Positions 27,003 through 45,765 of a DNA stretch of 64,000 bases are shown one piece after another. The first letter of the stretch is position 1. Every line of letters begins with the position of its first letter. The stretch is from Tetmemena sp. SeJ-2015 (Eukaryota > Ciliophora > Spirotrichea > Sporadotrichida > Oxytrichidae), in the NCBI GenBank assembly GCA_027382625.1, contig JAJKFJ010020752.1:186001-250000 (forward strand), written 5' to 3'. Made by a program: the position numbers and the translations under genes. The notes beneath the pieces are model-generated. The model was not told the origin of the DNA and did no database searches. It worked only from the letters and a program-made list of their open reading frames with translations.

Positions 27003-29028
27003 CTAGATTCCTTGACCAGCCGCAGGCGTCATAGATCGCGGCATGGTGTGCGGGCTTCGACCGCATCGCCGATGCGATAGAGGCGAAAGCCATGCGGACC
27101 CCTGCCTTCAGGCTGGGGTTGCCCCGCGATCAGCGCGTCGTAATCCACTGCGCCAAGATTTTCCGACAGCGGCTTCAATTCGAAATACAGGTCCGCATTC
27201 GGGGCGGTGCCATGGTTCACGACGATCTGGTCGAAGCTGCGCGTCTCGCTGCGGTCCAACAGATAGTCCGACCCGACCACCGCGGTCAGCTGGTTGCCCT
27301 CGGGCCGCACCGCATTCAGGCGATAGGTCACGGTGAAGCGCGTCTTGCCGAATTGCAGCGCCCGCATATAGGGGACAAGGTTCATTGCCATGACCTCGGG
27401 CGCAAAGCTGCGGTCGGGGGTCATCACCTCGACGCTGGCGCCGGAAGCGGCAAGGACCTCGGTCGCCTGCAGGGCCGCATGATCGCCCGCGTCGTCGTAA
27501 AGCAGGACATTCTGCCCAGGGCGCACATCGCCCGACAGGATGTCCCAGGCGGTGACGACCCGATCCGCGCCGGAGGCCAGGTCGGGCAGTTGCGGCATAG
27601 CCGCCCGTGGCGATGATCACCACATCCGGCTTTTCGGCCAGAACATCCGACGCCTCGGCAAAGGTGTTGAAGCGGAACTCCACCCCCCGCGCCGCGCATT
27701 GCGCCATGCGCCAGTCGATGATGCCGATCATTTCCGCCGCGCTGCTTTGACGCGGTCAGGCGACTGCCGCCGGCTGTCGGCGACCTCGAACACACGTCAC
27801 CGATGCCGCGCGCCGCCGCGACGCGGGCGGCCTCAAGTCCGGCGGGCCAGCGCCGACACCACGACCCTCTTCTTCACGTCAGCGGGGCGATGTCATGGGC
27901 ATCGTCTCTTCGCGGCCCGTGGCGGGATTGTGCAGGCAAAGCGCCATGCCGCCCTGATAGATGCGGTCCAGACAGTAGGTCGCGCCGACGCAGGGCCGGA
28001 TCTCGTGTTCGCGGCCCTCCGAGAGTTTGCGCACGATATGCGGGTCGGCCATATGCGCCCGCGTCATGCCGACCATGTCAAGAGGCCATTGGGCGACGGC
28101 GTGGCGTGCCGTGGCCACATCGGGGATGCGGGCGGCGTGGAAAGGTGGCAGGCCGACCTCGGCGCGGATGCGGCCCGCAAGGTCCAGATGCGGAGCCGAC
28201 CGCATTCCCTGAATCGGGATCACATCGGTCATCGCCGCATCGGTGTGGATACGCCCCTTGATGATGTTGACGAAATCGACAAGGCCCGATGGGCCCTTTA
28301 CGCCGGCATTGGACGCCTTTCGACCGGATCGCCCGCCTCGGCCTCATCCGCCACATAGCGCATTCCCATCAGGAAGCCGGGACCAACGCGCTTGCGGCAG
28401 GCTTCCAGCACCTCGAAGGCAAAGCGCAGGCGGTTGTCGAGGGAGGAGGCGTCATAGGGCCTTCGGGCATGGCATTCGTCAGCGGGCTGATGAAATTGTC
28501 CATCAAATGCCCGTAACATTCGAACTCCACCCCATCGAGTCCGGCGACTTTCATCCGTTCTGCGGCATCGGCATAGTCCTGGATGACGCGGGCGATATCC
28601 CAATCCTCGGCCACTTTCGGGAAGGCGCGGTGGGCGGGTTCGCGCGCGGGGCCAGCGCCCAGGACGGGCAGCCAATCGCCCTTGTCCCACCGCGTCCGGC
28701 GGCCAAGGTGGGTCAACTGGATCATCACCGCCGCCCCCGCCTCGTGGCAGTCATCGGCGAGGCGCTTCATCCATGGCACGACCTCGTCTTTCCAGACCAG
28801 CACATTGCCGAAAGCGGGCGGGCTGTCGCGGCTGACGCTGGCGGAGCCGGCCGTCATCACCATGGCGACGCCGCCCTTGGCGCGTTCCAGATGATACAGC
28901 CGGTAGCGGTCCTTCGGCATCCCGTCCTCGGGGTAGGCGGGTTCGTGGCTTGTGGTCATGATCCGGTTGCGAAGCGTCAGGTGCTTCAATTGATAGGGCT
29001 GGAGCGGGATCATTCGATGCGGGGACAT
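27003..29028 (-). CDS. NADH:flavin oxidoreductase / N-demethylase-like flavoprotein (DgcA type, frame broken)
   Basis: A second protein of the same two-part flavoenzyme class, about 675 residues. The barrel begins MSPHRMIPLQPYQLKHLTLRNR and contains TTSHEPAYPEDGMPKDRYRLYHLERAKGG, IQLTHLGRRT and FECYGHLMDNFISPLTN. The iron-sulfur region RPCVGATYCLDRIYQGGMALC, a Rossmann domain and a C-terminal FAD/NAD part follow. The HEPAYPEDGMPKDRY block is like dimethylglycine and N-methylproline (stachydrine) demethylases. Frame changes occur near 28450, 28290, 27740-27870, 27590 and 27045. The stop (27003) assumes one of these is an indel. Starts at 29052 and 29013 are alternatives. Confidence 0.75.
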
Positions 29029-29116: not shown

Positions 29117-29578
29117 TCAGGTCAGGCGCAGAAGGAGCCCGTGCAGCAAGCTGCGCTCTTCGGCGCTGAGCGGCCGAGCGTTTCATCCGAGACCATCAGC
29201 GCCACCGTTTCAGCCGGCCGAACAGGGCCGCGCCCGTCGCGGTTCAGCCCCACGGTCAGGCGGCGGCGGTCCTGCGGGTCAGGCGGGTTGCGCCCATGGC
29301 CCAGCCGCACCAGCCGGTCGACGACACCCTTGATCGTGGCCGCATCCATTGCCGTCTCGCGCCCGAGCGGGTTCTGCGACAGCGGGCCAAGCTGGGACAG
29401 GCGGGCCAGCCGGCGAATTGCGGGGTGGTGACTTCGGGATAGGGTCGGAAAAGATCGCCAGATGGCGCTGCGTGACCCGGCGCAGGACGAAGCCGATCTG
29501 GTCATCCAGCAGATAGGGCAGCGCGGGGTCGGATTGGGCCAGGGCGTGCAGATAGACGCGGCGACGGGCTTTGGGCAA
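29117..29578 (-). CDS. MarR-family regulator (frame broken, TTG start)
   Basis: A MarR repressor of about 155 residues. YLLDDQIGFVLRRVTQRHLAIFSD is the N-terminal helix pair, then ATIKGVVDRLVRLG is the recognition helix region, followed by the wing DPQDRRRLTVGLNRDG. Frame changes lie near 29440 and 29270-29140. A TTG at 29578 fits the best frame; an ATG at 29585 in another frame would do if a six-T run has one base wrong. It is divergent from the molybdenum hydroxylase operon, and TTTGCATACGAA (29648-29659) in the gap is a candidate site. It is therefore the likely ligand-responsive repressor of the heterocycle operon. Confidence 0.78.
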
Positions 29579-29647
29579 AAAACATCACCAACGGGCCCGG
29601 GGGCCAGAGAGAAGCGTTGACAGATGGGTCGAGTGGGACGCAACTTG

Positions 29648-29659
29648 TTTGCATACGAA
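29648..29659. promoter_or_regulatory. Candidate MarR operator before the hydroxylase operon
   Basis: TTTGCATACGAA is an imperfect 12-base palindrome, A/T-rich in a G/C-rich context, 22 bases upstream of the first operon gene. A TTGACA at about 29617 could be the promoter -35. Both are by eye only. Confidence 0.35.
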
Positions 29660-29681
29660 TGATCTTCCCGGGGGCCCAGGG

Positions 29682-30480
29682 ATGGGGTATCACCAAGCCG
29701 CGACACTGACCGAAGCGCTGGACCTTGCGGGCCGGGGCGCGCGTCTTCTGGCGGGGGGCACCGATCTTTACCCCGGTGCCGGGGCGCGGCTGGCGGGGCC
29801 GGTGGGGGACATTGCCGGTCTGGCCGAGCTGCGCGGGATCAGTGGGGGGGATGGCTGCGGATCGGCGCCTGCACCACCTGGAGCGAGATCGCGGCGGCGG
29901 CTCTGCCCCCGGCCTGCGCAGCTTTGCAGGAGGCGGCGCTTCAGGTCGGCGGGCGGCAGATCCAGAATGCGGGCACGGTGGGCGGCAATCTTTGCAACGC
30001 CTCGCCCCCCGGGTTTGGCTGCCGCCCCTGCTGGCGCTTGTGCGAGGACGGGGCCGGGGCCGGGGCCTGCGCCGCCATGCGCTGGCGATTCCCTCCCTGG
30101 GGCCGCGCCGGTGACCTCCCGCCCGGGCGAGGTGCTGGTCGCCCTGCATCTGCCGCAGGCGGCGCTTGCCGGGCGTCGCGGTTCGAGGAAGCGGGCGCGC
30201 GGCCTATCTGGGATCTCGATCGCCATGGGGGCGGTGCGGCTTGAAATTCTGGACGGCCAGATCACCACGGCCCGGGTGGCGGCGGGGCCTGGGGCCGGTC
30301 GCACGGCGGCTGGCTGCGGTGGAAGGGGCGCTGCCTGGCCTTGTGGAGGGGCAGCGGACCGCGTCGATGCGGCGCAGGTTGCGGCGGGGCTTTCGCCCAT
30401 CGCCGATGTGCGGGCCAGCGCGGCATACCGCCCCGGGGCGGCGGCGGAACTGATCCGCCGGCGGGGGGCATCTGGCATGA
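29682..30480 (+). CDS. FAD-binding subunit of a molybdenum hydroxylase (frame broken)
   Basis: The medium subunit of a xanthine-dehydrogenase-family hydroxylase, moving electrons from the iron-sulfur clusters to FAD. MGYHQAATLTEALDLAGRGARLLAGGTDLYPG holds the first FAD motif (AGGTDL), and GGRQIQNAGTVGGNLCNASP the second (TVGGNL). The C-terminal CO_deh_flav_C part follows (LEILDGQITTARVA). Frame changes near 29865, 30010, 30070, 30185, 30290 and 30400 were bridged. The stop overlaps the next start as ATGA. It is the first gene of a long operon divergent from marR. Confidence 0.82.
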
Positions 30481-33116
30481 TCCGTTTCCCGCTCAACGGT
30501 CAGGATGTTTGGGTCGAAGCCCGGGGACGAGCGGCTGAGCGAGGTGTTGCGCGAAAGGCTTGGCGCCGCGGCAAAAAGGGGTGCGATGCGGCGATTGCGG
30601 CGCCTGCACGTGCTGGTCGATGGCCGCGGGTTTGCGCCTGCCTGATGCCGGCGGGGCGCGTCGCCGGGGCCGTTGTGGTGACGGTCGAGGCCGAGACGCC
30701 GGAACTGACCCGGCTGCGTGCGGCCTTCCTGCGCCATGGTGCGGCGCAATGCGGCATCTGCACGCCGGGGATGCTGCTGGCCGGGGCCGAGTTGCTGGCC
30801 CGCAATCCCGCACCTTCTGAAGCCGAGGCGCAAGAAGCGCTGGGCGGGGTTCTGTGCCGCTGCACCGGCTATCGCAAGATTCTGGCGGCGGTCTGTGATA
30901 CGGAAAGCGAGGCGCCTTCGCCGGAGACCGGCATCGGCGCGCGGGTGCAGCGGCTGGACGGTGCCGCCAAGGTGGCGGCGATGTCTTTGGCGCGGATCAT
31001 GCGCCAGAGGGGGCCTTGCAGGTCCGCGCCATTTCCCCTCGCCCCCCCTCCCATGCCGCGTTGCCTTTTCGACCTTGCCCCTTCGCGGCGCGGCCCGGCA
31101 TCGCCGGGTCTGGACCGCCGCCGACATCCCGGGCGCAAGCCTTTCCCGCATCCCGCCCTTTGCCGACCAGCCCGCCATCGCCACTTGCCCCGCCGGCTTC
31201 GCGGCGAATGCGTGGCGTTGTGGCCTTCGACCGGGGGCCGAACCGGATCTTGCCGAATTTTCCCGATCCACCTGGCAGGCGCTGCCCGCCCTGCTGACCC
31301 CGCCGAGGCCGAAGCGCGGGCGCGCAGCTGATCCATGGCACGCGGGCGCGAACCTGCTGATCGAGGGCCGTGTGCGGCGCGGCGATGGCCGCGGCGCTGG
31401 CCCTTCGGCCCATGTCGGTTCGAAGGCAGCTTCGAACCGCCTATGTCGAAAAATGCCTATATCGAGCCTGAGGCCGGGGTGGCCTGGATGGAGGGCGATA
31501 TGTTGGTCATCCGCGCCTGCACCCAGGCGCCGGGCATGGACCGCGAGGATACCGCCGCCGTGCTGGACCTGCCGCTGGCGCGGGTGCGGATCATTCCTTC
31601 GGCAGTGGGCGGTGGCTTCGGCTCGAAGCTCGACCTGTCGCTGCAACCGCTGATCGGGTTGGTCGCGCTGAAAACCGGCCGCCCGGCGCGGATGATCTAT
31701 TCGCGCAGCGAAAGCATGGCCTCGACCACCAAGCGCCATCCGGCCGAGATGAAGGGCCGGATCGGCTGTGACGGGGAAGGGCGGATCACGGCGGTCGAAT
31801 TCGAAGGCCGCTTCAACACCGGCGCCTATTCAAGCTGGGGGCCGACCGTGGCGAACCGGGTGCCGGTCCATGTTTCCGGCCCCTATTACACGCCCGCGAT
31901 TTCGGCGCGGGCGCGGGCGGTCCACACCCATGGCCCGGTCTCGGGTGCCTTCCGCGGCTTTGGCGTGCCGCAGGGTGCCCTGTGGCAGGAGACGCTGTAT
32001 GACCGCCTGGCCGAGAAGGCGGGGCTGGACCGGCTGGAGTTCCGGCTGCGCAACGCGCTGCGCGACGGGCAGGCGACGGCGACCGGGCAGGTCGTGCAGG
32101 CCGCCGGCATCGCGCCCTGCCTGACCGCCCTGCAACCGCATTGGCAGGCGGCGCTGGCCTGGGCGGGGCAGGCAGGGGCAGGGGGTCGGCATCGCCTCCT
32201 GCTGGTATGGCTGCGGCAATACCGGCCTGCCCAACCCCTCGACCATGCGCATGGGCATTGCGGCCGACGGCAGGATCGTGCTGCATCAGGGCGCGACCGA
32301 TATCGGCCAGGGCTCGGGCACGGTTGATCCCGCAGATCGCCGCCGCGGCCTTGGCGTGCCGTGCAGGCGCTGCATCTTCTGGGCCGATACGGCCTCACCC
32401 CGGATGCGGCAAGACCAGCGCGTCGCGCCAGACCTATGTCTCGGGGCCGGGCGGCACAGGCGGCGGGGGCGGCGTTGCGGCGGCGATCCTGCGGATGGGC
32501 AATGCCGGGCCAGGGGCCGAGATCGTTCCTGACACTGGAAAGATCATCCTGCGTGACGGCGCGACCCGGCGTGAGATCGACCTATCGGCCCTGTCGAGGG
32601 ATTCGCGCGGCTACGTGCTTTCGGTCGAGGAAAGCTATGATCCGCCGACCAGCGGCCTTGATGCTGACGGCCAGGGCAAGCCCTATGCCGTCTACGGCTA
32701 TGGCGCGCAGATCGTGGCGCTCACGGTCGATCTGGCCCTTGGCACGGTGAAGCTCGACAAGATCACCGCTGCGCATGATCTGGGCCGCGCGATCAACCCG
32801 ACCCTGGTCGAAGGCCAGATCGAGGGCGGCATCGCCCAGGGCATCGGCCTGCGCTGAGAGGAGTATCTCGCCGCCGCACCGAGAACCTGCATGACTACCT
32901 GATCCCGACCGTGGGCGATGTGCCCATAATCGAAAGCCTGATCCTGGAAGTGCCCGATCCCGAAGGGCCGTTCGGCGCCAAGGGCCTGGGCGAGCATGTG
33001 CTGATCCCGACCGCCCCGGCGATCCTGAACGCCATCCGCCATGCGACGGGCGCCGCGCTGACCCGGGTTCCCGCGCTGCCGCACCGCATCCTCGAAGCGA
33101 TGAAGGGCAAGGCATG
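30477..33116 (+). CDS. Molybdenum hydroxylase with fused 2Fe-2S and molybdopterin domains (frame broken)
   Basis: About 880 residues in one chain. The first ~150 are the iron-sulfur part: MIRFPLNGQDVWVEA, a plant-type ferredoxin cysteine cluster (CDAGDCGAC in corrected frame), and the second cluster QCGICTPGMLLA with VLCRCTGYRKI. The rest is the molybdopterin part: TQAPGMDREDTAAVLDLPLARVRIIPSAVGGGFGSKLDL, SGAFRGFGVPQGALWQETLYD, the DIGQGSGT block and GAKGLGEHVLIPTAPAI with the catalytic glutamate. This order is that of the Desulfovibrio aldehyde oxidoreductase (Mop). Frame changes are concentrated at 30530-30660, 30990-31440, 32180-32450 and 32860. Together with the FAD subunit it would hydroxylate an N-heterocycle or aldehyde. 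Confidence 0.83.
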
Positions 33117-33124
33117 ATCCGCGC

Positions 33125-33181
33125 CCCTTCCTCCTGGCTCAAATATCCCAAGGGCCTCCGGCGGGGCGAAACCCCCGGGGC
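33125..33181 (-). repeat. Rhodobacterales-type intergenic stem-loop repeat, copy 1
   Basis: Read on the minus strand: GCCCCGGGGG, loop TTTCG, CCCCGCCGGAGGCC, then CCTTGGGATATTTGAGCC and AGGAGGAAGG. The order, a GC hairpin, then GGGATATTTGAGC, then a purine-rich tail, is shared with 44034-44090 in the opposite orientation. It lies between the hydroxylase and hnr-like genes. Confidence 0.6.
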
Positions 33182-33201
33182 CCGCAGCAAGGATGGCCGC
33201 C

Positions 33202-34605
33202 ATGTCTGATGCCGCGCCCGAGAAGATCCGCTGCGATGCCTGTCCGGTGATGTGCTATATCGCGCCGGGCCAGACCGGGGCCTGCGACCGCTATGCCAAT
33301 GCGGCCGGGCGCATCGTGCGCACCGATCCGGTCGTGATGCTGTCGCACGCCCTGACCGGCGGCCAGCGCATCGTGCCCTTCGCCGCCGCCCACATCCTGC
33401 CCGACAATCGGACCGGAGGCGCCTGCACGCCCGGTGCCGCCTTCGCCGCGCCCTTTATCTGCCTCGCAGGGACGCGCGGTCGGCACGTGGTGACCGAGGC
33501 GATCTTTTCCTATTGCGGCGTCAAGGTGAAGATCGACACGGACCGCTTCTCTTGGACCGGAAGGCGCTGTGATCCGGGTGCAGGGCGAACCTGTGGGCCA
33601 TGTCACCACGGCCGAATATGGTAGCCAGATGCTTTCCCTGGGGGGCGTGCATCACCTGACCGGCGGATCAAAGCCCGAAGGCCGCATCACCTGCGCCGCC
33701 ATGCTGTCCTTGTGCAATGGCGAAGCGGTCGAGATGGAGATCGAGGGCGGCGCGCGGGTGGTGGTGCAGGCGGGGCAGCCGCCCATCGTCGATGGCAGGC
33801 CCGAACGGCGGATGCGGGTCGGCTGCGGCTCGGCCACGATCGGCATGTTCGCGGCGCAATGGCGCGGGCTGGTGGATGAGGTGGTGGTGGTCGACGATCA
33901 CATCACTGGCGTCGTCTCGGAACATCAGGCCGGCAAGGTGCTGGGATGGCAACCGACCGGGATCAAGATCAAGGGCCACCGCTCGACCCCCGGCCGCTAT
34001 TTCCGTGTGTCCGAGCCGGGGCTGGGCTGGGGCGGCACAAGGCTGACCGATCCGCTGGAAATCCTGGGCGACTGGCAGGAGAAGAAGGGGGCACGGCCGG
34101 GGCTGACGCTGCTGATGGTGTCGACCACCGGCGAGGATCACGCCTATTATGTGCTGGACGAGCACTGAAGCCCGTGCAACAGCCCTTGCCCGAGGCATTG
34201 CACGGCACCGTCGCCCTGATCGACGAGAATGCGAACCCTCGCTCTGCACCGTGCTGTTCGTCGGCGGGGCGGGCGGGTCTTTGCGCGCGGCGTGCCAAGA
34301 ACCCGGTGCGGCTGACCCGCTCGGTTCAGGGCGGTGTGACACGGCTGACCTCGGGCGGGGCCGAATGCTTTGTGTGGCCGGGCGGCGGCATCACCTTCAT
34401 GGTCGATGTGCTGGATCTGCCCAAGGGGGCCTTTGGCTATGTGCCGACCCCCGCCCTGGTGGCGCCATTGGAGTTTACCCTGCCGCGCGCCGATTATCTG
34501 GCGATGGGCGGTCATGAAGCCGCGATCCGCAGCCTTGACCGCGCAGTGGCCGAGGGTGGCGAATACCCGACCGCCGCGCGGCTGGAAAGCTGGCCCCTGC
34601 GATGA
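33202..34605 (+). CDS. hnr: 6-hydroxynicotinate-reductase-like iron-sulfur protein (frame broken)
   Basis: In Eubacterium barkeri Hnr reduces 6-hydroxynicotinate to 1,4,5,6-tetrahydro-6-oxonicotinate and was reported to hold a covalent flavin and iron-sulfur clusters. Here about 467 residues start MSDAAPEKIRCDACPVMCYIAPGQTGACDRY, with four cysteines spaced for a [4Fe-4S] cluster. Then follow CTPGAAF, EAIFSYCGVKVKIDTDRFSW, LGGVHHLTGGSKPEGRITCAAML, RMRVGCGSATIGMF and a C-terminal half with TRSVQGGVTRLTSGGAECFVWPGGGITFMVDVLDLPKGAFGYVPTPALVAPLEFT. Frame changes lie near 33570, 34165 and 34255. The ATG at 33202 has AAGGA eight bases before; 33193 is the alternative. It overlaps the UPF0280 gene by four bases. 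The assignment rests on my memory of the family, not on a search. Confidence 0.7.
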
Positions 34606-35446
34606 GCGGCGCTGTCGCAGCCCTTTTGCCCGACGGCAGGCTGCATTTGCAGCATGGGCCGATTGATATTGTGGCGCAGGGCTTTGGCCCGGATGATGCG
34701 CTGCGCGCGGCCCATGCCCGTGCTGCCGCGCGCTTTGCCACCGTGCTGGACGAACTGGTCGCCGAATTGCCGATGCTGCGCAGCGAAATGGGTCTTGTCA
34801 GCGGAAAGATTGCCCGGCGGATGGTGCTGGCCGTCTTGCCCTATCGGCCCGCCTTCCTGACGCCCATGGCGGCGGTGGCCGGGGCGGTGGCCGAAGAGGT
34901 CTTGCAGGCCCTGGCCGGGCCCAGGATCACGCGGGCCTATGTGAACAATGGCGGCGATATCGCGCTGCATCTGGGGCCGGGCGAAAGCCTGACCTGTGCC
35001 CTGGCCGTCACGGGCGGGCTGGAGCAGGTCACAGTCGCGGGTTCTGACCCGGTGCGCGGCATCGCCACATCGGGCTGGCGCGGGCGCAGCTTCTCGCTGG
35101 GCATCGCCGATGCGGTGACGGTGCTGGCGCGCACCGCCGCAATGGCCGACGCTGCGGCGACGATGATCGCCAATGCGGTCGATCTGCCGGGCCATCCCGG
35201 TATCCGCCGCAGACCTGCGCAGGAGATGCAGGCCGACAGCGATCTGGGCGCGCGGGCGGTGACGGTGGATGTGCCCGCGCTTTCCCCCGCAGACCGCGCT
35301 GCGGCCTTGCGGGCGGGGCTGGCGGCAGCCGAAGGGTTCCGGGCGCGGGGCTTGATTGAAGCGGCGGCGCTTTTCCTTCAGGGTGAAAGCGTTGCGACGG
35401 GAGGCGGTCTCTTGGCCGCCCGAAGCGAAGCGAGGAACATGTCTGA
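34602..35446 (+). CDS. UPF0280 (ApbE-like) protein
   Basis: A protein of about 281 residues of the UPF0280 family, in the ApbE (FAD:protein FMN transferase) superfamily. LRSEMGLVSGKIARRMVLAVLPYRPAFLTPMAAVAGAVAEEVL and VNNGGDIALHLGPGESL are conserved; RGIATSGWRGRSFSLGIADAVTVLARTAAMADAAATMIANAVD is the typical ApbE-like C-terminal region. The ATG at 34602 overlaps the hnr stop as ATGA. One frame change near 35400 makes the end ambiguous: with correction the stop is the TGA at 35444-35446, overlapping the next gene. Because Hnr of E. barkeri has a covalent flavin, a flavin-transferase-like partner gene directly downstream is suggestive. Confidence 0.8.
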
Positions 35447-36019
35447 TTTCACCATCCGCAAGATCGTCTGCCAGATCGAGGAGATCCGCCATGAAGGCGG
35501 CCCTGCGCCCGCCGCCCCCGTGCTGCGCGGGGCGATCTACGCGATCTGCGCCAATCCCTTTGCGGGCCGCTATGAGGCGAACCTTCAGCCCGCGATGGAG
35601 ACGCTGAAACCCCTGGCGCTGGACCTGACCGACCGGCTGGTGGCGGCTCTGGGTGGCCCGTGCGGATCGACGCCTATGGCAAGGGCGCCATCGTCGGCGA
35701 GAATGGCGAGCATGAACATGGTGCGATCTGGCATGTCTCGGGCGGCTACGGCATGCGCGAGCGGCTGGGCGAATGCCGCGCCATCGTGCCCTCGGCCATG
35801 AAAGTCGGCGGTATGGGATCGACGCTGGATGTGCCGCTGGGCCATCTGAACGCGGCCTATGTGCGGTCGCGTTTCGACGTGATCACGCTGGCTTGCGAGG
35901 ACGGGCCGCGCGCCAATGAGGTTCTTTTCGCGCTGGCCATGGCGCGGGGCGGGCGGGTGCACAGCCGGATGGGGGGGCTTGAGATGGCCGATGTGAAGGG
36001 GGAGGACGGGCTTCGGTGA
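35439..36019 (+). CDS. AA_synth-family protein of unknown function
   Basis: About 193 residues of the amino acid synthesis (AA_synth, PF06684-like) family; the name is historical and the reaction is not established. MSDFTIRKIVCQIEEIRHEGGPA begins it, with AIYAICANPFAGRYEANLQPAMETLKPLALDLTDRLVAALGG; VRIDAYGKGAIVGENGEHEHGAIWH and GMRERLGECRAIVPSAMKVGGMGSTLDVPLGH are the conserved core. One frame change near 35655 (a missing base after GGTGGCCCG) is bridged. It overlaps the UPF0280 gene by eight bases and the next gene by four (GTGA), so it belongs to the operon. Confidence 0.82.
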
Positions 36020-37440
36020 ACCAAGCGCACGAATTTTCGCCGAAAATTCGAGGCCTTGCCCGGCTGGCCTGCCCTGTGGCGGCGCTGCTGCCGGGGCTGG
36101 CGCAGGCCTGCGCCCTGCCGCCTTCGGTGCTGCTGACCCTGCCGACCGACACCTATATCACCGCCGCCGCGCTGACCGTGGCGCTGACGGCGGTGCTGGG
36201 CGCGCTGTCGGGGCGGCTGCCGGATTTCACCGCCCGCAAGCTGGCAGAGTTCCGGCCCGGCGCCCTGACCACCGTCACCTCCTACCTGTCCTTCCTGGCC
36301 TTTCTGGGCCTGGTTCTGGTCGGCCTGCTTGGCAATCGCGACCCGATGCACAATCTGATGACGCTGGTGTTCTGGACCGGGGTCTGGATCGCGCTTCCGC
36401 TTGGGTCGATGCTTTTGGGCAATCTGTGGCGGCCACTGAACCCATGGACAGGGCCCGTGCGGATTGCGCGGACACTGCTGCCGGACCGGCGGGATGGGCC
36501 CTTTTCGCGCCTAGGCCATTGCCCGGTTCGGGGCCCTGGCGGGGTTTGCCTGGTTCCAGAGCATCTCGCTATTATCCCGACGATCCGCCGTTCTGGCAAG
36601 GCCGCGCTGGTCTATTGGGCGATGATCTTCGTGCTGGCGGTGCTGGACGGCGAGGACTTCCTGCAGCGGGGCGAGTTCCTGACCGTGCTTTTCACCATGA
36701 TCTCGCGCGTCTCGCCGGTCTGGATCGAGCGGCAGGACGACATAGCCCGGCTTTGCGCGGGTTTTCCCGGGGCGCAGGTCCTGCGGATGGCGCCGCTTTC
36801 GCCTTCGGCCGTGGTCTTCGTGACACTGGCCCTGGCGGCGCTTACCTTTGACGGGCTGATGGAGACCTTCTGGTGGCGGGCCCTGATCGGCGAGAACCCG
36901 TTGGAGCCTGCCGGGCGCTCGGCGGTGATGATGGCCAATACGCTGGGGCTGCTGGGGGTCTGGGTGGTGACCATGGCGCTGATCCTTGGGGTGATCCGGG
37001 GGGGCGGCTGGCGGCGGGGCCGGTCGCGCTTTCGTTCCTGGCCATCGCGGCGGGCTACCATGCGGCGCATTATCTGGTGATGCTGCTGACCGCCGGGCAA
37101 TACACCCTGGCCGCGCTGAACGATCCGCTGTTCAGCGGCGAAAGCTGGCTGGGCTGCCGCCCTTCTATGTGTCCTTCGGTTTCCTGACCGATCCGCGCAT
37201 CATGCCGCTGATTTATGCCTTCCAGTTCACCGCCATCCTTGCGGCGCATCTTCTGGCGGTCGTGTTGGCGCTGCGCTGGCGGGCGGCGGCGCGGCGCGGC
37301 TGCGGGCGCATCTGCCGCTGACCGGATTGATGGTCCTTTATACGATCCTTGGCCTCTGGCTTCTTTCGACCGCCAGGCAGGGTGACATTTTGTCCATTTC
37401 GTTCGCGTACTTACAGACCAGACCGCGGAGTTGCCGCTAG
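36016..37440 (+). CDS. Polytopic membrane protein of unknown function (frame broken)
   Basis: About 470 residues, with a GTG start overlapping the upstream stop (GTGA). At least eleven hydrophobic segments are seen, for example VTSYLSFLAFLGLVLVGLLG, VFWTGVWIALPLGSMLLG, AALVYWAMIFVLAVLDGEDF and LGLLGVWVVTMALILGVIRGG. Short loops contain GNLWRPLNPW and FDGLMETFWWRALIGENP. I recall this type only as a large membrane protein beside amide and N-heterocycle transporter genes; no function is known to me. Frame changes lie near 36520, 37010, 37155 and 37285. The stop could be 37384 (a TGA in another frame) or 37440. Confidence 0.65.
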
Positions 37441-37471
37441 AAGCAACCCGCCCCAACATGGAGAGACGGAA

Positions 37472-38724
37472 ATGACGAACCTGTTTATGCCCAGCCGCCG
37501 CAGCCTGTTGAAAGGGCAGGCGCAGGGTACTTGCCGGATCTGCCGCCGTGGTGCGGCCCAGGCCAGCCCGATCAGCTGGTCCAGCTTCACCGAGGCATCG
37601 GCCTCCTATGCCGCTGTAGAACCACGGGGACGGCGGCCCTGAAGGCGATCAACGAGGCGGGCGGCATCGCCGGACGCCCGGTCGAGATCCTGTTCGAGGA
37701 TGATGCGACCGACCCCAAGCGCGGGGCGGAGGTGGTTGACAAACTGACCCAGTCGGATGGCTGCGATATCGTCATGGGAACGCTGTTTTCCCATGTCGTC
37801 ATGGGCTCGGCCCCGCGCGCGGCGGAACTGAAGGTGCCCTATCTGGTCTGTTCGGAAGGCTATCACGTCGCCTCCGGCGCGCTGAACCGCTGGACCTTGC
37901 AGCCGGGCATCACCGATGTGCGCAGCCAGATTTCCAGCATGGCGCCCTGGGTCGCGGCCAATCTGGGCAAGAAGGTCACCATCTTCTACCCGGACTATGC
38001 CTTCGGCTATGACCACCGCGACTTCTTCTCGAAAGCGATCGAGGCGCAGGGCGGACAGGTTCTGGCCCAGATCGCCATCCCGCCGACCGAAACCAGCTTT
38101 ACCCGCTATTTCGCGCAGATCCCGGCGGATACCGAGGTGCTTTATCACGTCATGGTCGGCCCGGCCGTGCTGACCTTCGTCAAGGAGCTGGGCGAATTCT
38201 ACGGCTCAGGCGCGAAGCCGCAGCTTTTCGGCTTTGTCGACAGCCTGGAAGCGGTGGATACCGCGACGCCGGGGCTGGAATTCCTGGAAGGCAGCCATTT
38301 CTGGGAAGCGCATCCGCGCACCAAGCCCGCCGATGCAGGCGAGCATGAAGGCACCTATCGCGCCGCCGTGGGGGTCGACGACAATGGCACCAGTGTCAGC
38401 GATGCCAAGGATGTGGCGACCTATTCCCACATGTTCTCGTGCTGGGAGACGCTGTATTTCCTGAAGGCCGCGATGGAAAGCGCGGGCTATACCGGCCCGG
38501 CCGACCGTCAGAAGCTGGTCGAGGCGATGGAGGCGATGTCCGACCTGCCCTATGGGATTGAGCGGCCACAGGGCGCGAAGGTCTTCAACGGCAAGACCCA
38601 TCAGGTCTTCGGCGTGCAGAACATCAGCCAGATCCAGTCGGGCAAGCTGGTCAAGGTCCATACCACCTCGATGGAGGACGGGCTGTACGAGGATGCGGTG
38701 GATTACACCACCATGTCCTTCTGA
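37472..38724 (+). CDS. Liv/amide-type ABC solute-binding protein, Tat-exported
   Basis: The receptor of a branched-chain-amino-acid/urea-type importer (periplasmic binding fold type I). The N-terminus SRRSLLKG is a twin-arginine signal; the next codons are frame-broken (37510-37640). Then come ALKAINEAGGIAGRPVEILFEDDATDPKRGAEVVDKL, YHVASGALNRWTLQP, VTIFYPDYAFGYDHRDFFSKAIEAQGG and PPTETSFTRYFAQIP. HEGTYRAAVGVDDNG and KTHQVFGVQNISQIQSGKL follow, all as in short-chain amide or urea receptors. About 415 residues. The ATG at 37472 follows GGAGAG. Its ligand is likely the heterocycle or amide that feeds the operon. Confidence 0.85.
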
Positions 38725-38751
38725 CCCCTGATTCACGGGTTTGACCCCTGG

Positions 38752-38774
38752 CCCCGCCCGCTTTCGCGGCGGGG
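38752..38774 (+). other. Stem-loop between the binding-protein and permease genes
   Basis: CCCCGCC and GGCGGGG pair around CGCTTTCGC with no T tract. Hairpins at this place in ABC operons often protect the binding-protein mRNA and lower permease expression; that role is inferred. Confidence 0.45.
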
Positions 38775-38800
38775 TTGACACCCGCCTTACGGCTGATCGC

Positions 38801-39657
38801 ATGTCTTTTGGACCTTTCTTCTTCTCGCCCTGATGGAGGGCTGGTGCCCGCCGCGCGCTCGCGCTGGCGGCTTCGGGCCTGTCTCTGGTTTTTGGCGTGA
38901 TGCGCGTGGTCAATGTCGCGCATGGCGAGTTCAAACATGCTCGCGCGCGTGATCGCCTGGTTCGTCGCGCGGTCCGCCGGCCTGGGCGCATCCGTGGCGC
39001 TGGCCGTCAGCCGTGGCGGTGGCGGCGCTGCGGCGCTGGCCGACCGGCTGGTGCTGCAGCGGCTGACTATGACCCGGAGGCGACATCGTGGCGACGATCG
39101 GGCTTTCTACATGATCCAGCGGCGCGCTGACCTTTTATGGCCCCGATGCAAGGCCGGTGGCCGCGCCTTTCGAATGGCGGCTGCAACTCCCGTGGTTCGG
39201 CTATTCTGGCTACAAGCTGTTCGTGGTGGCGGCGGCGGCGCTGGTGCTGCTGGCGCTGTGGTTGTTCATGACGCGCACGAAGGTGGGCCTTGTGATGCGG
39301 GCCACCCAGGTCGACCGGGAGGTGGCGCAGGCTTTCGGCATTGATGTCGATCTGGTCTATATGGCGGTTTTCGGCATCGGCGCGGCCCTGGCGCGGTGGC
39401 AGCGGTGCTATCGTCCGATCCAGCAGGCGCATTACCTGATGGGGCATGATCCGCTGCTTCTGTCCTTCATCGTCGTGATCATCGGCGGGCTGGGGTCTCT
39501 GCGCGGCACCGTGGTTGCGGCGCTGGTGATCGGCCTGTCGGACGGGGTGATCAGCATGTTCTTCTCGCCCACCCTGGCCAAGATCCTGGCCACGCTGCTG
39601 GTCGCCCTGGTGCTGGTCTTCCGCCCGCAGGGCCTGTTCGGGGGGCGCGAAAGATGA
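38801..39657 (+). CDS. ABC permease, LivH type (frame broken)
   Basis: One membrane subunit of the importer. GLSLVFGVMRVVNVAHGEF is the LivH signature, LQLPWFGYSGYKLFVVAAAALVLLALWLFMTRTKVGLVMRATQVDREVAQAFGIDV the middle, and FIVVIIGGLGSLRGTVVAALVIGLSDGVISMFFSPTLAKI the end. About 285 residues. Frame changes lie near 38808 (a T run), 38850, 38935, 39010-39150 and 39400. The stop overlaps the next start as ATGA. Confidence 0.85.
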
Positions 39658-40581
39658 GCGGGCGCAAGATCTGGGCGGCGCATCTGGCGCTTCTGGCGGT
39701 GCTGTTCGCGCTGCAGTACATCCTCCCGCCCTATCACGCGACCAATCTGGCCCGCGTGATGGTGCTGGCGCTGTTCGCAACCGGCTACAATCTGGCCTTC
39801 GGCTATACCGGGCTGCTGAGCCTGGGCCATGCGCTGTTCTTCGCGGCGGGCATGTTCGCGGCGGCGCTGCCCGCCTGGCACTACGGGCTGGGGGCTGGGC
39901 CTGCCCTGCTGCTGGCCGTTCTTGGCGGCGCGGGCATGGCGCTGGTGACGGGGCTTCTGGCGCTGCGGACGGCGGGGGTCAGTTTCATGATCGTGACGCT
40001 GATGTTCGCCAAGGCCTTTCACCTGATCCTGATCTATTTCAACCAATGGACCGGCGGCGATCAGGGCTTCGCTCTGCCCGCCGCCAGCCGCACTGGCCGG
40101 CAGGCGCTGTCGCAAGACGGGCCGCGGTTCCTGGTCGCCTGGACGCTGTTCTCGGTCGGGCTGCTGGTCTGTCTGGCGCTGGTGCGGTCGCGCTTTGGCC
40201 GGGTTATGGTGGCGATGCGCGAGAATGAGGACCGTTCGCGCCTTCTGGGTTACAACCCTATCGGGTGAAGCTGTGGTTCTGGTGATTTCGGGTGCCTATG
40301 CCGGGGTTGCGGGGGGGCCTGGGCGATCCTGTTCGGCTATGCCGGCGCGGGTTTTGCCGAGATCCAGTTTTTCCATCCTGCGATGCTTTACGTCCTGATG
40401 GGCGGCGCAGGCGTGGTGGCCGGCGATCCTGGGGCTGCGGCGATGTTCTGGCTGGTGGAATGGCAGCGGAACTGACTTCAGCCTGGCTGTTCCTGGTGGG
40501 TGCCGCGTTGGTGGTCCTGGTCCTGTTCGCGCCCAGGGCGTGCGGGCTGGGTGCGCGCCGTTTCTGGAGGATCTGCCATGA
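39654..40581 (+). CDS. ABC permease, LivM type (frame broken at the end)
   Basis: The second membrane subunit: ARVMVLALFATGYNLAFGYTGLLSLGHALFFAAGMFAAAL is the LivM hallmark, followed by LLALRTAGVSFMIVTLMFAKAFHLI and RSRFGRVMVAMRENEDRSRLLGYNP. After a frame change near 40262, VISGAYAGVAGG and AGFAEIQFFHPAMLYVLMGGAGVV continue to the end. About 308 residues; stop TGA overlaps the ATPase start at 40578. Confidence 0.85.
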
Positions 40582-41298
40582 GCCTGTTGCAAGCGCGCGG
40601 CCTTGTGCGGCATTTCGGCGATTGCGCGCCGTCGATGGCGGTGGATTTCGACCTGGCCCCGGCGAGGTCCATGGGCCTGATCGGACCGAACGGGCGGGCA
40701 AGACACCTTCGTCTCGCTTCTGTCCGGCGCATCCCGGTGCAATCGGCCAGATCTTCCTGCAAGGGGGCCCAGATCACCCGGCTGTCGGGACAGGCCAGGG
40801 TCAGGCAGGGGCTGGCCTATACGTTCCAGATCACCTCGATCTTTCCGGGCCTTTCGGTCTTCGACAATGTCGCCCTGGCGGTGCAGGGCGGGCGTGACAC
40901 GGTGGGCGCGCTGCGCGGCGACAAGGCCGCCCTGGCCCGCGCCGTGGCGGCGGCGCTGGAAAAGGTCGGGCTTGGGGGCCATGGCGGTCAGATGGCGGAG
41001 AGCTGAGCTACGGCCATCAGCGGCTTCTGGAAGTGGCCATGGGGCTGGCGCTGAAGCCCCGGGTGCTGATCCTGGACGAGCCGACCCAGGGCCTGGCCGC
41101 GGGCGAGATCGCGGGCTTCATGGCGCTGGTGCGCGGGCTGGTGCCCGAGGTCGCGGTGCTGATGATCGAACATAACATGGAGGTGTGATGGGCGTCGCCG
41201 ACCGGATCACCGTCCTGAATTTCGGCCGGTCCTTGCGCGCGGGACACCCGCCGAGTCCGAGCCGATCCGCCGTGCAGGAGGCCTATCTTGGCGCTTGA
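40578..41298 (+). CDS. ABC ATPase, LivG type (frame broken in Walker A)
   Basis: MSLLQARGLVRHFG starts it. Walker A is broken by indels (GLIGPNGRARHL where GPNGAGKTTF is expected). FQITSIFPGLSVFDNVALAVQ is the LivG Q-loop region; ELSYGHQRLLEVAMGLALKPRVLILDEPTQGLAAGE carries the signature and Walker B. VLMIEHNMEVVMGVADRITVLNFGR follows and the end is VQEAYLGA at 41298. Frame changes lie near 40640-40710, 41005, 41185 and 41240. The damage in Walker A fits the general error pattern and is not evidence of inactivity. Confidence 0.85.
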
Positions 41299-41392
41299 AG
41301 TCACGGGCTGACGGCGGCTACGGCCCGGTGACAGTGCTGCGCGGGGTGGATTTCAGCGCCCGGCCGGGTGAGGTGACCTGCATCATGGGCCG

Positions 41393-41423
<31 letters not shown>

Positions 41424-41668
41424 GCGCTGATGGGGCTTTTCCCTGTTCGGGGCGGATCACGCTGGACGGGGACAGGTCTCGGGCCAGCCCGCCCACAAGG
41501 TTCCCGGGCTGGCCTGGCTGGTGCCGCAGGGGCGGCGGCTGTTCGGGCCGCTGACCGTGGCCGAGAACTTCCATCGCGGATTGATACGCGCAACCGGCTG
41601 CGTGACGGGCGCGGGTGCTGGAGATGTTCCCGCGTCTGGGCGAGCGGCTGGGCAGGTGGCCTCGACCC

Positions 41669-41701
<33 letters not shown>

Positions 41702-41970
41702 GCCGGGCATTGTGTCTTGAGCCGAAGGTCCTGCTTCTGGACGAGCCGACCGAAGGCTTGCAGCCCTCGATGATCCAGCTCATCCGCGAGGCGATGCTGC
41801 GGCTGAAGGCCGAGGGCGTGGCGGTGGTGCTGGTCGAGCAGCGGGTCGATGCGGTGCTGAAGATGGCGGACCGCGTCGCCTTCATGGCCCATGGCAGGGT
41901 CGAAGACATCGTCGAGGCTGGCGCCTTGACGCCCGGAGCGCGGCAATTCGCGGATTATGTGGGGGTATAG
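41288..41970 (+). CDS. ABC ATPase, LivF type (TTG start, frame broken)
   Basis: The second ATPase: MALEVTG at a TTG start (41288) overlapping livG by 11 bases, then [43 protein letters not shown] with an intact Walker A. QGRRLFGPLTVAENFHRGL, the signature [38 protein letters not shown] and VVLVEQRVDAVLKMADRVAFMAHGRV follow. Frame changes lie near 41312, 41455, 41495 and 41610. It ends GARQFADYVGV. With the binding protein, two permeases and livG it is a complete importer. Confidence 0.86.
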
Positions 41971-42007
41971 CGATGGGCGCGGCAGGATGCGCGGGCAAGG
42001 CGGGGGG

Positions 42008-44024
42008 ATGGCTGTGACCAGAGCAGGGCTTGTGGCGGGCGTCGATGTCGGCGGAACCTTCACCGATCTGGTCGTGTTCGATCCCGTCTCGGGCGGGGTG
42101 CGGCTGGCCAAGGTGCCGACCACGCTGCCGAACCAGTCGGGCGGGGTTCTGGCGGCTTTCGAGGCGGCGGGGGCCGATCTTTCCGCGCTGGACCTGATCG
42201 TCCATGGCACCACGACCACGACCAATGCGGTGCTGGAGCGCCAGCTTGCCCAGACCGGCATCATCACGACCGCGGGTTTCCGCGACGTGCTGGAACTGGG
42301 TCGCCGCACGCGGCCGCAGGCCTATGGCATGGCAGGCCGCTTCGTGCCGATCATTCCGCGCGACCTGCGTCTGGAAGTGCCCGAGCGGATGGATGCGCGT
42401 GGGCGCGTGGTCACGCCGCTTGATGAAAATGCTTTTCGCGACGCCGTTGCTGCATTGCAGCAAGCGGGCTGCGAGGCGTTGGTGATCCATTTCCTGCACG
42501 CCTATGCCAATCCGGCGCATGAACTGCGGGCTTTGGAGATTGCGCGAGAGGTCTGGCCAACCCCCTACATCACCTGCGGCCATCACCTGCTGTCGGAAAG
42601 CCGTGAGTTTGAACGGGGGGTGACGGCGGCCGTCAATGCCTCGGTCCAGCCGTTGCTGGAACGCTTATTCCGCGGCTGGCGGGAGGGTTGGCGCAAGGCG
42701 GCTATGGCGCGATCTGTTGGTGATGAAGGGCAATGGCGGCATGGTTGCCGCGCAGCATGGCGAAGAAGCCGTCAGCGGTGATGTCGGGGCCTGCCTCGGG
42801 CGTGATGGCGGCGGTGCGACCGGGCGGCGGCGGGGATGCAAGACCTTCTGACCTATGACATGGGCGGCACCTCGACCGATGTGGCGATGATCCGTGGCGG
42901 CGTGGCCCCGGTCTCGAACGAGATCGAGGTGGAATATGCCATGCCGATCCACGTGCCGATGGTCGATGTGCGCACGGTGGGCGCAGGCGGCGGGTCCATC
43001 GCGCGGGTCGATGCGGGGGGCATGCTGCGGGTCGGCGCCGAAAGCGCCGGCTCCTATCCCGGCCCAGTCTGCTATGGCGCGGTGGCACGAAGGTCACGAT
43101 CTCGGACGCGAACCTGATCCTGGGGCGCCTGCCTGCCAGCCGGTTCGGACAGGCAGCCGAGGCGGCGCGGGCGGCGATGGACGCGCAGATCGCGCGGCCT
43201 TTGGGCCTGGGGATCGAAGAAGCCGCCGAGGCCGTGCTGCGGATCGCCAATACCCATATGGCGGGCGCGTGCGGATGGTGTCGATCTCGATGGGGGCCGA
43301 TCCGCGCGATTTCGCGCTTTTCGCCTTTGGTGGGCAGGGCCGCTGCATGCCGTCCCCTGGCCGGGAATTGGCGGTGCCAAAGGTGCTGGTCCCGCGCGGC
43401 CCGGCATTACCAATGCGCTGGGCTGCGTGGTCGCCGACCTGCGCCATGATTTCGTGCGCACGCTGAACCGGCCCCTGGATGTGCTGGACATGGCGAGGTC
43501 GCGGCCATCCTGTCGGCGCTTGAGGCCGAAGGCCGCCGGCTGATCGCGGCAGAGCGGGTCGAGGTGCGCGATGTGAAGGCCGAGTTTTCGGCCGATATGC
43601 AGTTCCTGGGGCAGACCCATCTCTGCGCGTGGCCTTGCCCTTCCGCCGCTCCGACCAGGACCAGATGCAGGCGCTGTTCGAAGCGGCCTATCATGCCCCC
43701 TTCCGCGTGGATCTGCCGGAAATCCGCGCCTCGGTGATGAACCTGAATGTCTCGGTCACCGGCAGGCGGGCCGAGTTGGACCTGTCGCGGCTGATCGACC
43801 CTTCCGGGCGCAAATCCGCGCCGGAGGTCAAGGAGCGGCGGCGGGTGTGGTTTGACGGCGGCTGGCAGGATGTGCCGGTCTATTGGCGCGATCACCTGCC
43901 GCTGGCGCTGGATCTGGAAGGCCCGGCCATCGTCGAGCAGATGGACACGACGCTGGTGGTGGAGCCGGGCTGCCGGGTGACGTCGGACAAGGACGGCAAT
44001 CTGATCGTGGCGGTTCGGGGCTGA
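42008..44024 (+). CDS. hyuA: Hydantoinase/oxoprolinase subunit A (frame broken)
   Basis: HyuA is the ATP-binding subunit of ATP-dependent hydantoinases and 5-oxoprolinases, which phosphorylate and open cyclic amides. MAVTRAGLVAGVDVGGTFTDLVVFDP is the actin-like phosphate-1 motif; HGTTTTTNAVLERQ, DMGGTSTDVAMIRGG, VRTVGAGGGSIARVDAGG and GAESAGSYPGPVCYG are conserved, as is AFRVDLPEIRASVMNLNVS. About 672 residues. Frame changes lie near 42690-42840, 43080, 43265, 43340-43410, 43490 and 43620. It is 37 bases after livF and followed by a repeat and hyuB. In this operon it could open the reduced ring lactam made by the hnr-like enzyme. Confidence 0.88.
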
Positions 44025-44033
44025 AAACGCCAA

Positions 44034-44090
44034 GCCGGGGGACTTCGCATCCCCCGGCCCCCTGCGGGATATTTGAGCGGAAAGGAAGGG
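44034..44090 (+). repeat. Rhodobacterales-type intergenic stem-loop repeat, copy 2
   Basis: GCCGGGGGA, loop CTTCGCA, TCCCCCGGC is a perfect nine-base stem, followed by CCTGCGGGATATTTGAGC and the purine tail GGAAAGGAAGG. The layout matches 33125-33181 in the opposite orientation. The tail also supplies a ribosome site for hyuB. Confidence 0.65.
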
Positions 44091-44097
44091 GGGGACG

Positions 44098-45765
44098 ATG
44101 ATCGATCCGGTGACATTGGCGGTGATCCAGGCGGGGTTGCAGCAGGTCTGCGACGAGATGGACCTGACCTTCTCGCGCGCGGCCTTTTCGCCGGTGATCG
44201 CCGAGGCGGATGACCGCTCGGACGGGATCTACAGCGCCGAGGATGGCAGCCTGATCGCGCAGGGATCGAAGGGGTTGCCCGTCTTTGTCGGCTGATGCAG
44301 TTTCTCCACCCGAACCTGATCCAGCGCATCGCGGCAGGGGTGACGGCAGCGCCCGAGCCGGGCGACATCTATATCGTCAACGACCCCTACCTGGGCGGCA
44401 CGCACCTGATGGATGTGCGCTTCGCCATGCCGGTCTGGCGCGACGGCAAGATCTGGTGCTGGCTGTCGAATACCGGGCATTGGCCGGATACCGGCGGCAT
44501 GGTGCCGGGCGGGTTTTCGGCCAGCGCGATCAGTGCTGAACAGGAAGGGCTGCGCCTGCCGCCGGTCAAGCTGTTCAAGAAGGGCGTTCTGGACGCCGAG
44601 ATCTGGGCGATCATCTGCTCGAACATCCGCGTTTCCGACCAGCGCATCGGCGATGTGAAGGCGCAGGCAAGCGCCCTGATGGTCGGGGCCGAGCGGCTGG
44701 CGGCGCTGATGGACCGCTATGGCGACGCGACGGTGAGCGAGGCGGTGGCACGGATGCGCGATCTGGCGGCGCGGCAGATGCGGGCCATGGTCGGGCTGAT
44801 CCCGGAAGGAAGCTATCAGGCCCGCGCGATGATCGACAGCGACGGGGTGGTGAACGAGCCCTTGACCATCGCCTTGACGATGACGCGGTCGGGCGAGCGG
44901 CTGATCTTCGACTTTGCCGGATCGTCGCTGCCCTGCGCGGGGCCGATGAATTCGGTCCGGGCGACGACGCTGTCATCGGTCTATCTGGCGGTGCGCCATG
45001 TCTTCCCGGATGTGCCGATCAGTGCCGGGGCGTTCGAGCCGCTGGAAGTGACGGGGATCGAGGGCACGTTCCTGGACGCCCATTACCCGCGCCCGGTGTC
45101 TGGCTGCGCCGCCGAGGTTAGCCAGCGCATCGCAGAAGCCGTCTTTGCAGCACTGGTCCAGGCCATCCCCGAGCGGTGACGGCGGCCCCGGCGGGGACAA
45201 GCGGCAATTTCGGCCTGGGCGGGACCGATCCGGAAACCGGGCGGGCTATGTGATGTACCAGATCTCGGGCGGCGGCTATGGCGGTTTCGCCGGGGGGATG
45301 GCATCTCGAACGGCTGTTCCACCATCGGCATATCCAAGGCGCCGCCGTCGAGATCATGGAGCAGAAGTATCCGTCCTCTATCGCCGCTACGCCCTGCATG
45401 AAGGCTCGGGCGGCGCGGGCCGGATGCGGGGCGATCGGGCTGGATTACGAAATCGAGGTTGCTGCGCGGCACGCGCGGGCGTCCTTCGTGATGGACCATG
45501 GCCGGGTCGGGCCGCAGGGCGTGTGGCGGCGGCGACGGCGCGTGAACCGGGTCGAGATTCACCGCAGGATCAGCGGTTCTGTGCCGGAACACCTGTCCAA
45601 GGCGCAGGACATCGTGCTGCAGGCGGGCGACCGGGTCAGGGTGCGCACGCCGGGCGGGGGCGGCTATGGCGGCCCCAAGAGCGCGATCCGGCGCTTGTGG
45701 CCGAAGATCTGCGGCTGGGCCGCTACAGCGCGGAAGAGGCCCGGCGGCTTTGGCCGCCGGGCTGA
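44098..45765 (+). CDS. hyuB: Hydantoinase/oxoprolinase subunit B (frame broken)
   Basis: HyuB is the partner subunit. MIDPVTLAVIQAGLQQVCDEMDLTFSRAAFSPVIAEADDRSDGIYSAEDGSLIAQG is the family start, and GDIYIVNDPYLGGTHLMDVRFAMPV carries the conserved NDP motif. TGHWPDTGGMVPGGFSASA, EGLRLPPVKLFKKG and the glycine-rich end DRVRVRTPGGGGYGGP follow. About 555 residues. Frame changes lie at 44295, 45175, 45240, 45300, 45370, 45440, 45540 and 45690. It ends four bases before the convergent RND gene. It closes the operon that starts at 29682. Confidence 0.88.

Follow-up and report, generated by a model that had tools for sequence, protein, structure and literature searches.

A candidate nicotinate operon in which HyuAB probably opens the ring in place of enamidase

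In Eubacterium barkeri the reductive breakdown of nicotinate passes through 1,4,5,6-tetrahydro-6-oxonicotinate (THON), which, according to the excerpted account in PMC9304392, is opened and deaminated by a bifunctional enamidase. A second excerpted source describes the aerobic counterpart: Azorhizobium, Bradyrhizobium, Rhodopseudomonas and strain SG-6C have a conserved cluster for the first three nicotinate steps, which also holds an ATP-binding cassette importer and two conserved proteins of unknown function, and the aerobic route proceeds through glutarate (PMC3511419). In Azorhizobium caulinodans ORS571 this cluster is AZC_2804-2790, its genes having been found by BLAST with those of E. barkeri, while SG-6C, whose 6-hydroxynicotinate reductase (Hnr) is 42% identical to the E. 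barkeri enzyme, grows on both nicotinate and 6-hydroxynicotinate (PMC3511419). The operon analysed here lies in a 64,000-nucleotide stretch (the window) of contig JAJKFJ010020752.1, from an assembly filed under the ciliate Tetmemena sp. SeJ-2015. At 29,161-45,756 it encodes on the plus strand the flavin adenine dinucleotide (FAD)-binding, 2Fe-2S and molybdenum parts of a hydroxylase, then Hnr, UPF0280, AA_synth, a membrane protein, LivK, LivH, LivM, LivG, LivF, HyuA and HyuB, with a divergent MarR gene in front; this content and order are as an earlier, sequence-only reading had given them.

The likeness to the E. barkeri pathway, as far as the excerpt describes it, lies in the molybdenum hydroxylase, in Hnr and in a predicted hydrolytic opening of THON. 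The difference is that E. barkeri and clusters of the Sulfitobacter type use enamidase where the type found in the window has HyuAB, and the locus is filed as a variant of the reductive (THON) cluster and not as the E. barkeri type. Compared by description with the partial account of the ORS571 and SG-6C clusters, the window has like content, with HyuAB and no enamidase; look-alike clusters in genomes G087, G215 and G313 suggest by analogy that the third step in ORS571 and SG-6C is carried out by enamidase. The operon probably serves nicotinate breakdown by the reductive route, and the step that opens the tetrahydro-oxonicotinate ring, elsewhere the task of enamidase, would fall to HyuAB and consume ATP. 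With somewhat less assurance, we propose that HyuAB is an undescribed ATP-dependent THON lactamase that has changed places on at least five occasions with enamidase, a metal-dependent enzyme unrelated to it; that enamidase works only with subtype B of AA_synth; and that two modules (HyuAB with or without AA_synth subtype A, and enamidase with subtype B) are set on one core of molybdenum hydroxylase, Hnr and UPF0280.

The evidence that carries this proposal is the distribution of the two openers among genomes with Hnr. A scan for Hnr in one genome per bacterial or archaeal species gave at least 586 stretches encoding a relative, of which the best 80 were kept as loci (L numbers; G numbers denote genomes); many of these 80 stretches end before the cluster does, and counts over them are lower bounds. 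Near the 48 loci without HyuA, 129 of the 141 listed proteins of at least 230 amino acids were screened against Pfam. Four matched Amidohydro_1 and two, beside the clusters of L047 and L077, were identified as enamidase by their match to enamidase 2vun (E=1.6e-107 and 2.2e-104). Since the genomes of L047 and L077 are without a cluster-type HyuA, this enamidase and the L026 HyuA served as queries against whole genomes, the best HyuA per genome being called present at 52% identity or more to the latter and absent at 47% or less. Among 50 of the 80 locus genomes, HyuA (at least 52%) occurs in 44 and enamidase (at least 61%) in eight; 41 have HyuA only, five enamidase only, three both and one (G013) neither (Fisher p 1.5e-4). 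G021, counted as HyuA only (52%), has in addition an enamidase relative at 39%; the HyuA of G020 is split in two, and that of G027 is partial.

A separate, even sampling of the alphaproteobacteria (289 genomes) contained 44 genomes with Hnr, or 43 with the query's own genome set aside. HyuA alone (at least 55%) is present in 25 of these and enamidase alone (at least 68%) in 17; none has both, and the single genome with neither (G276) has a contig ending at 12 kb (Fisher p=4.3e-11, kinship ignored). Two of the 25 HyuA genomes also hold weak enamidase relatives (36-39%). As 10 of the 17 enamidase genomes contain HyuA paralogues at 37-47%, the HyuA call depends on the best match per genome falling to one side or the other of a gap from 47% to 55%. 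Hnr and the opener begin no more than 12 kb apart in 16 of the 25 HyuA genomes and in 12 of the 17 enamidase genomes. All 26 plasmid records with Hnr carry one opener on the same record and none carries two: HyuA (at least 63%) in 10 and enamidase (at least 68%) in 16. Twelve of the 26 are from Sulfitobacter, the rest from Rhizobium and relatives, Rhodobacterales, Methylobacterium and one Comamonadaceae bacterium; as 12 of the 16 enamidase plasmids are from Sulfitobacter, the records are not independent. Within Rhizobium the plasmids differ, those of R. gallicum and R. etli having enamidase and that of R. lusitanum HyuA. By these identity-based calls, HyuA and true enamidase are near-perfect alternatives.

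A tree built quickly from 93 Hnr proteins (66 with HyuA only, 22 with enamidase only, three with both and two with neither) indicates that the exchange of the opener happened repeatedly. On the best tree the HyuA/enamidase label needs at least nine changes, and the strongly supported branches alone force five changes of the enamidase label and six of the HyuA label. In six independent pairs on such well-supported branches that differ in HyuA, enamidase never differs in the same way; it differs in the opposite way in 4.3 pairs on average and shows no difference in 1.7. Formally the evidence is weak: the sign test on these pairs is underpowered, with a median p of 0.125, and this counts against the proposal, as do several further observations. 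The identity cut-offs decide the calls, and second HyuA copies lie near the line (51% in G172; 52%, partial, in G020). Two genomes, G013 and G276, have neither opener, and three Mesorhizobium genomes have both, their enamidase lying apart from Hnr. HyuA at 54-61% is found in three of 37 control genomes that lack Hnr, and seven of 17 plasmids with this HyuA (six of Sinorhizobium medicae and one of Rhizobium rhododendri) have no Hnr on the same record, so HyuA is not strictly tied to Hnr. One of the 37 controls has enamidase at 80%; many of the controls are small genomes, which makes this comparison weaker than that inside the Hnr set. No enamidase was found in the 64 kb of the window, as the sequence-only reading had noted, or in its assembly, where the bacterium may be only partly present and the absence is weak evidence. 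The window's own copy of the operon, moreover, has broken frames, which are described below.

A second cluster, of enamidase, two AA_synth copies and MarR, occurs in the mesorhizobia L091 and L092, two of the three with both openers. In L091 it is accompanied by a PnrA-type importer together with a nucleoside hydrolase, in L092 by an isochorismatase-type hydrolase, and it perhaps serves the breakdown of pyridine nucleosides. An aldehyde ferredoxin oxidoreductase lies near enamidase in L047 (4137-5819), L077 (4179-5897), L122 and L142; possible roles are the oxidation of a pathway aldehyde and the recharging of ferredoxin for Hnr.

The chemistry of the HyuAB family is the ATP-driven opening of cyclic amides, and THON is a lactam with six ring atoms whose nitrogen is that of an enamine; if it were opened with ATP and ammonia were then lost, the product would be that of enamidase. 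The candidate ring-opener of the window consists of a HyuA-type ATP-binding subunit at 42,023-44,015 (plus strand; PF05378, 163 bits; PF19278, 39 bits) and a HyuB-type subunit at 44,098-45,756 (plus strand; PF02538, 284 bits), both frame-broken. Together they have the N- and C-terminal HyuA domains, the HyuB domain and the ATP motifs of the HyuAB/oxoprolinase superfamily, the motifs being DVGGTFTD at 42,044 and DMGGTSTD at 42,857. Among 32 HyuA proteins the former is present in 31 and the second ATP motif in all 32. The first piece of the window HyuA is 63% identical to that of L013, and identity to the HyuA of L026 is 51-52%. N-methylhydantoinase 7hk5, 5-oxoprolinase 6yra and caprolactamase CapAB share the sequence family and the ATP motifs, and the solved relatives of HyuA are N-methylhydantoinase, 5-oxoprolinase and acetone and acetophenone carboxylases. 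The proteins do not qualify as caprolactamase, the intact L026 proteins scoring 505 and 321 bits against CapAB cut-offs of 1000 and the first pieces in the window 132 and 160 bits. In the public annotation consulted, names for the HyuAB genes of these clusters are broad or taken from other enzymes (hydantoinase/oxoprolinase, N-methylhydantoinase A, acetophenone carboxylase).

Hnr lies at 33,214-34,596 (plus strand) in three frame pieces and retains a CxxCx3Cx9C motif. No Pfam or NCBIfam model matched the window pieces or the intact L026 protein, and a search of PDB sequences with the L026 protein gave nothing at E<=1, so the identity of Hnr rests on its homologues. The middle piece is 86% identical to a protein named 6-hydroxynicotinate reductase (P0003), 90% to the L009 protein and 75-80% to those of L025, L026 and L033, whose clusters have a linked nicotinamidase. 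The Hnr-like gene of the sequence-only reading is thereby substantiated, and the protein is assigned as a 6-hydroxynicotinate reductase through homology to proteins so named and not through the E. barkeri sequence directly. Plasmid records, that of Fuscovulum ytuae included, already give the homologue this name. A scan of viral contigs confirmed no Hnr.

The gene order, which the sequence-only reading had proposed to seek in relatives, is conserved. The order from the FAD subunit to HyuA is that of the window in 15 of the 80 loci. In most of these the stretch ends before HyuB, and four of them (L016, L019, L022 and L029) gave no MarR call. On the F. ytuae plasmid NZ_CP124537 the whole unit from MarR to HyuB is annotated gene by gene, HyuAB being QF092_RS19445 and QF092_RS19450, and with the 15 loci this indicates that the order is not due to chance. 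Its genes overlap by 4, 4, 4 and 8 bases from the FAD subunit to AA_synth; beyond AA_synth come gaps of 61, 88 and 134 bases, after which the annotated values are 4, 13, 14, 0 and 8. The genes are thus packed closely into two blocks, the looser spacing being that around the membrane protein and LivK. Across the 80 loci the most frequent genes are Hnr (80), UPF0280 (78), the fused FeS-molybdenum gene (74), AA_synth (69) and the FAD gene (67), followed by MarR (56), LivH (54), HyuA (32), the membrane protein (22) and HyuB (14). A nicotinamidase-like gene is linked in 33 loci (one representative scoring 220.6 bits against the NCBI cut-off of 174), a ferredoxin-NADP-reductase-like gene in 15 (139 bits, below the cut-off of 390) and an Old-yellow-enzyme gene in 11. 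In several mesorhizobia the importer stands in front, the nicotinamidase-like gene is divergent and HyuBA lies on the opposite strand, adjoining the reductase-like gene. HyuAB follows immediately after UPF0280 in L105, L121, L124 and L136, and after AA_synth in L024.

AA_synth (DUF1185) lies at 35,439-36,016 (plus strand) in two frame pieces, both matching PF06684. It belongs to a subtype A, being 60-65% identical to the L026 copy, which matches PDB 3byq and 2qtp, as against 37-51% to the enamidase-linked subtype. The latter, subtype B, was defined as at least 68% identity to the L047 copy; it is present in all 17 enamidase genomes and, among the 26 other Hnr genomes, in two (G130 and G245, on other contigs than Hnr), and G154 has a subtype-B-like copy at 58%. 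Subtype A often adjoins Hnr or HyuA and often stands in tandem with subtype B beside enamidase, and plasmids of Sulfitobacter pontiacus and a Comamonadaceae bacterium each have two consecutive AA_synth genes and an amidohydrolase. The idea that AA_synth is exclusive to the HyuAB branch was dropped, as the gene also occurs beside enamidase.

The remaining genes were located by six-frame reading, Pfam and NCBIfam profiles and tblastn with proteins of relatives such as L011, and all those named by the sequence-only reading (HyuAB, UPF0280, AA_synth, the polytopic membrane protein and the full Liv-type importer) were recovered. The MarR-type regulator is divergent and in two frame pieces (29,161-29,515, minus strand; 55-75% identity to L011 MarR by tblastn), family membership being confirmed in the relative L052. 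All the others are on the plus strand. The molybdenum hydroxylase, a candidate nicotinate dehydrogenase, is present as stated, with Pfam matches for its three parts: a frame-broken FAD-binding subunit at 29,688-30,461 (PF00941, 46.8 bits; a PF03450 remnant in another frame; 36-41% identity to relatives in one frame by tblastn) and the frame-broken 2Fe-2S and molybdopterin parts at 30,477-33,111 (PF01799, PF02738, PF20256). As a correction to the sequence-only reading, these two parts form a single fused protein in relatives (889 amino acids in L011, to which the window was aligned). UPF0280 at 34,602-35,432 scores 367 bits with NF003322 (cut-off 290), and its L026 homologue matches PDB 2o34 (E=6.6e-6). 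From a likeness to ApbE and covalent flavin in Hnr, it was considered whether UPF0280 attaches flavin to Hnr; this is not claimed, the Hnr stretch resembling an ApbE target not being invariant (GSAT in 76 of 80 called proteins). The membrane protein (36,076-37,383; four frame pieces) has no Pfam family. The importer consists of a LivK-type binding protein at 37,516-38,721 (PF13458, 157 bits), frame-broken LivH- and LivM-type permeases at 38,801-39,648 and 39,654-40,567 (both PF02653), and frame-broken LivG- and LivF-type ATPases at 40,581-41,295 (profile match and alignment to relatives) and 41,316-41,967 (PF00005). On the minus strand, an Old-yellow-enzyme/FAD oxidoreductase adjoins the operon at 27,050-29,004; it is kin of 2,4-dienoyl-CoA reductase and of trimethylamine and histamine dehydrogenases and might, at a guess, be an N-demethylase channelling trigonelline into the pathway. 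A second, more distant oxidoreductase gene of this type lies at 24,102-25,349, and an AcrB-type efflux pump, in frame pieces, is convergent with HyuB at 45,773-47,987, both likewise on the minus strand.

Frame changes, which the sequence-only reading overlooked, interrupt most genes, and the four-base overlaps it reported are unreadable in the window. The FAD, fused FeS-molybdenum, LivH, LivM, LivG, LivF, HyuA and HyuB genes are each in at least two pieces. One reading of this is that the operon is a decaying pseudo-operon, which we consider very improbable, as the breaks span the whole window and the ATP and cysteine motifs are retained, a pattern that fits sequence error. The window has 110 coding segments, 33 within the 16.6 kb of the operon and 77 within the other 47.4 kb; their median length is 106 amino acids, against 275, 303 and 299.5 in three relatives treated by the same method. 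In the Lon gene at 54,960 the open frame is missing the greater part of the N-terminal domain; some genes elsewhere in the window, enolase among them, have a long open frame, so that the breakage is incomplete. The frames inside and outside the operon were probably broken through sequence error. The assembly that holds the contig comprises 5,213 contigs and 146 Mb; the contig is most likely a bacterial one, with many sequence errors, in an assembly of eukaryote size; a Paracoccaceae-like member of the Rhodobacterales is the best explanation of the operon's host.

Two further alternatives concern the chemistry. AA_synth might open THON in the same route, HyuAB acting on another lactam or a later amide; the wider occurrence of AA_synth speaks for this (69 of 80 loci against 32 for HyuA within the stretches covered, and 49 of the 50 locus genomes). 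However, AA_synth also lies beside true enamidase, often as a tandem pair, so that it replaces no opener, and since it accompanies both openers it is unlikely to be one. Furthermore, none was found at E<=1e-15 in five of the 25 HyuA genomes (G116, G234, G246, G283 and G331), nor in G047, which has HyuA, and HyuAB sits inside the unit in L024 and the four compact clusters. We regard this alternative as unlikely, and guess that AA_synth acts on the opened chain, for example in enamine hydrolysis or in the decarboxylation that the aerobic route needs. Similarly doubtful is that the substrate is another pyridine, such as a substituted nicotinate, with Hnr and HyuAB acting on analogues of 6-hydroxynicotinate and THON. 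Same-order loci have no linked nicotinamidase within the stretches covered, and several have an adjoining Old-yellow-enzyme gene, which could feed in a methylated or modified pyridine; against this, Hnr of the window type is close to that of the nicotinamidase-linked clusters, and SG-6C, with a cluster of like content in the published excerpt, degrades nicotinate itself. The naming of Hnr, the nicotinamidase linkage and the alternation of HyuA with enamidase favour an aerobic pathway for nicotinate or a close pyridine with an opening step other than enamidase, as the sequence-only reading had suggested.

For nicotinate breakdown with HyuAB as the opener, we infer the following course from the gene content. 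The Liv importer would take up nicotinate, the molybdenum hydroxylase would convert it to 6-hydroxynicotinate, and Hnr, probably using reduced ferredoxin, would reduce this to THON. HyuAB would then hydrolyse the THON lactam with ATP to aminomethylene-glutarate, from which loss of ammonia would give 2-formylglutarate and loss of CO2 would lead on towards glutarate. AA_synth probably assists after ring opening, UPF0280 may serve Hnr, and MarR is predicted to control the operon.

The published clusters of the SG-6C type, which the sequence-only reading missed, and the records that name the reductase mean that neither the aerobic reductive pathway nor the cluster is new. No report of HyuAB in 6-hydroxynicotinate breakdown, or of a swap of the opener, was found in searches of the open-licence PMC literature. 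The excerpts of PMC6346535, on oxoprolinase in the glutathione metabolism of Aspergillus, and of PMC2276186, on a phenyl-hydantoinase beside selenium-molybdenum hydroxylases, contain no link between HyuAB and 6-hydroxynicotinate, and those of PMC7560415 and PMC5746545 have no bearing on such a role. The cluster is thus ordinary in kind, while the exchange of its ring-opening enzyme is well supported and apparently unreported. It names a candidate enzyme for ring opening in the aerobic reductive breakdown of nicotinate in many alphaproteobacteria, and would be a clear example of one enzyme replacing a non-homologous one in the degradation of a vitamin. With it, the orphan families AA_synth/DUF1185 and UPF0280 become testable parts of a defined pathway.

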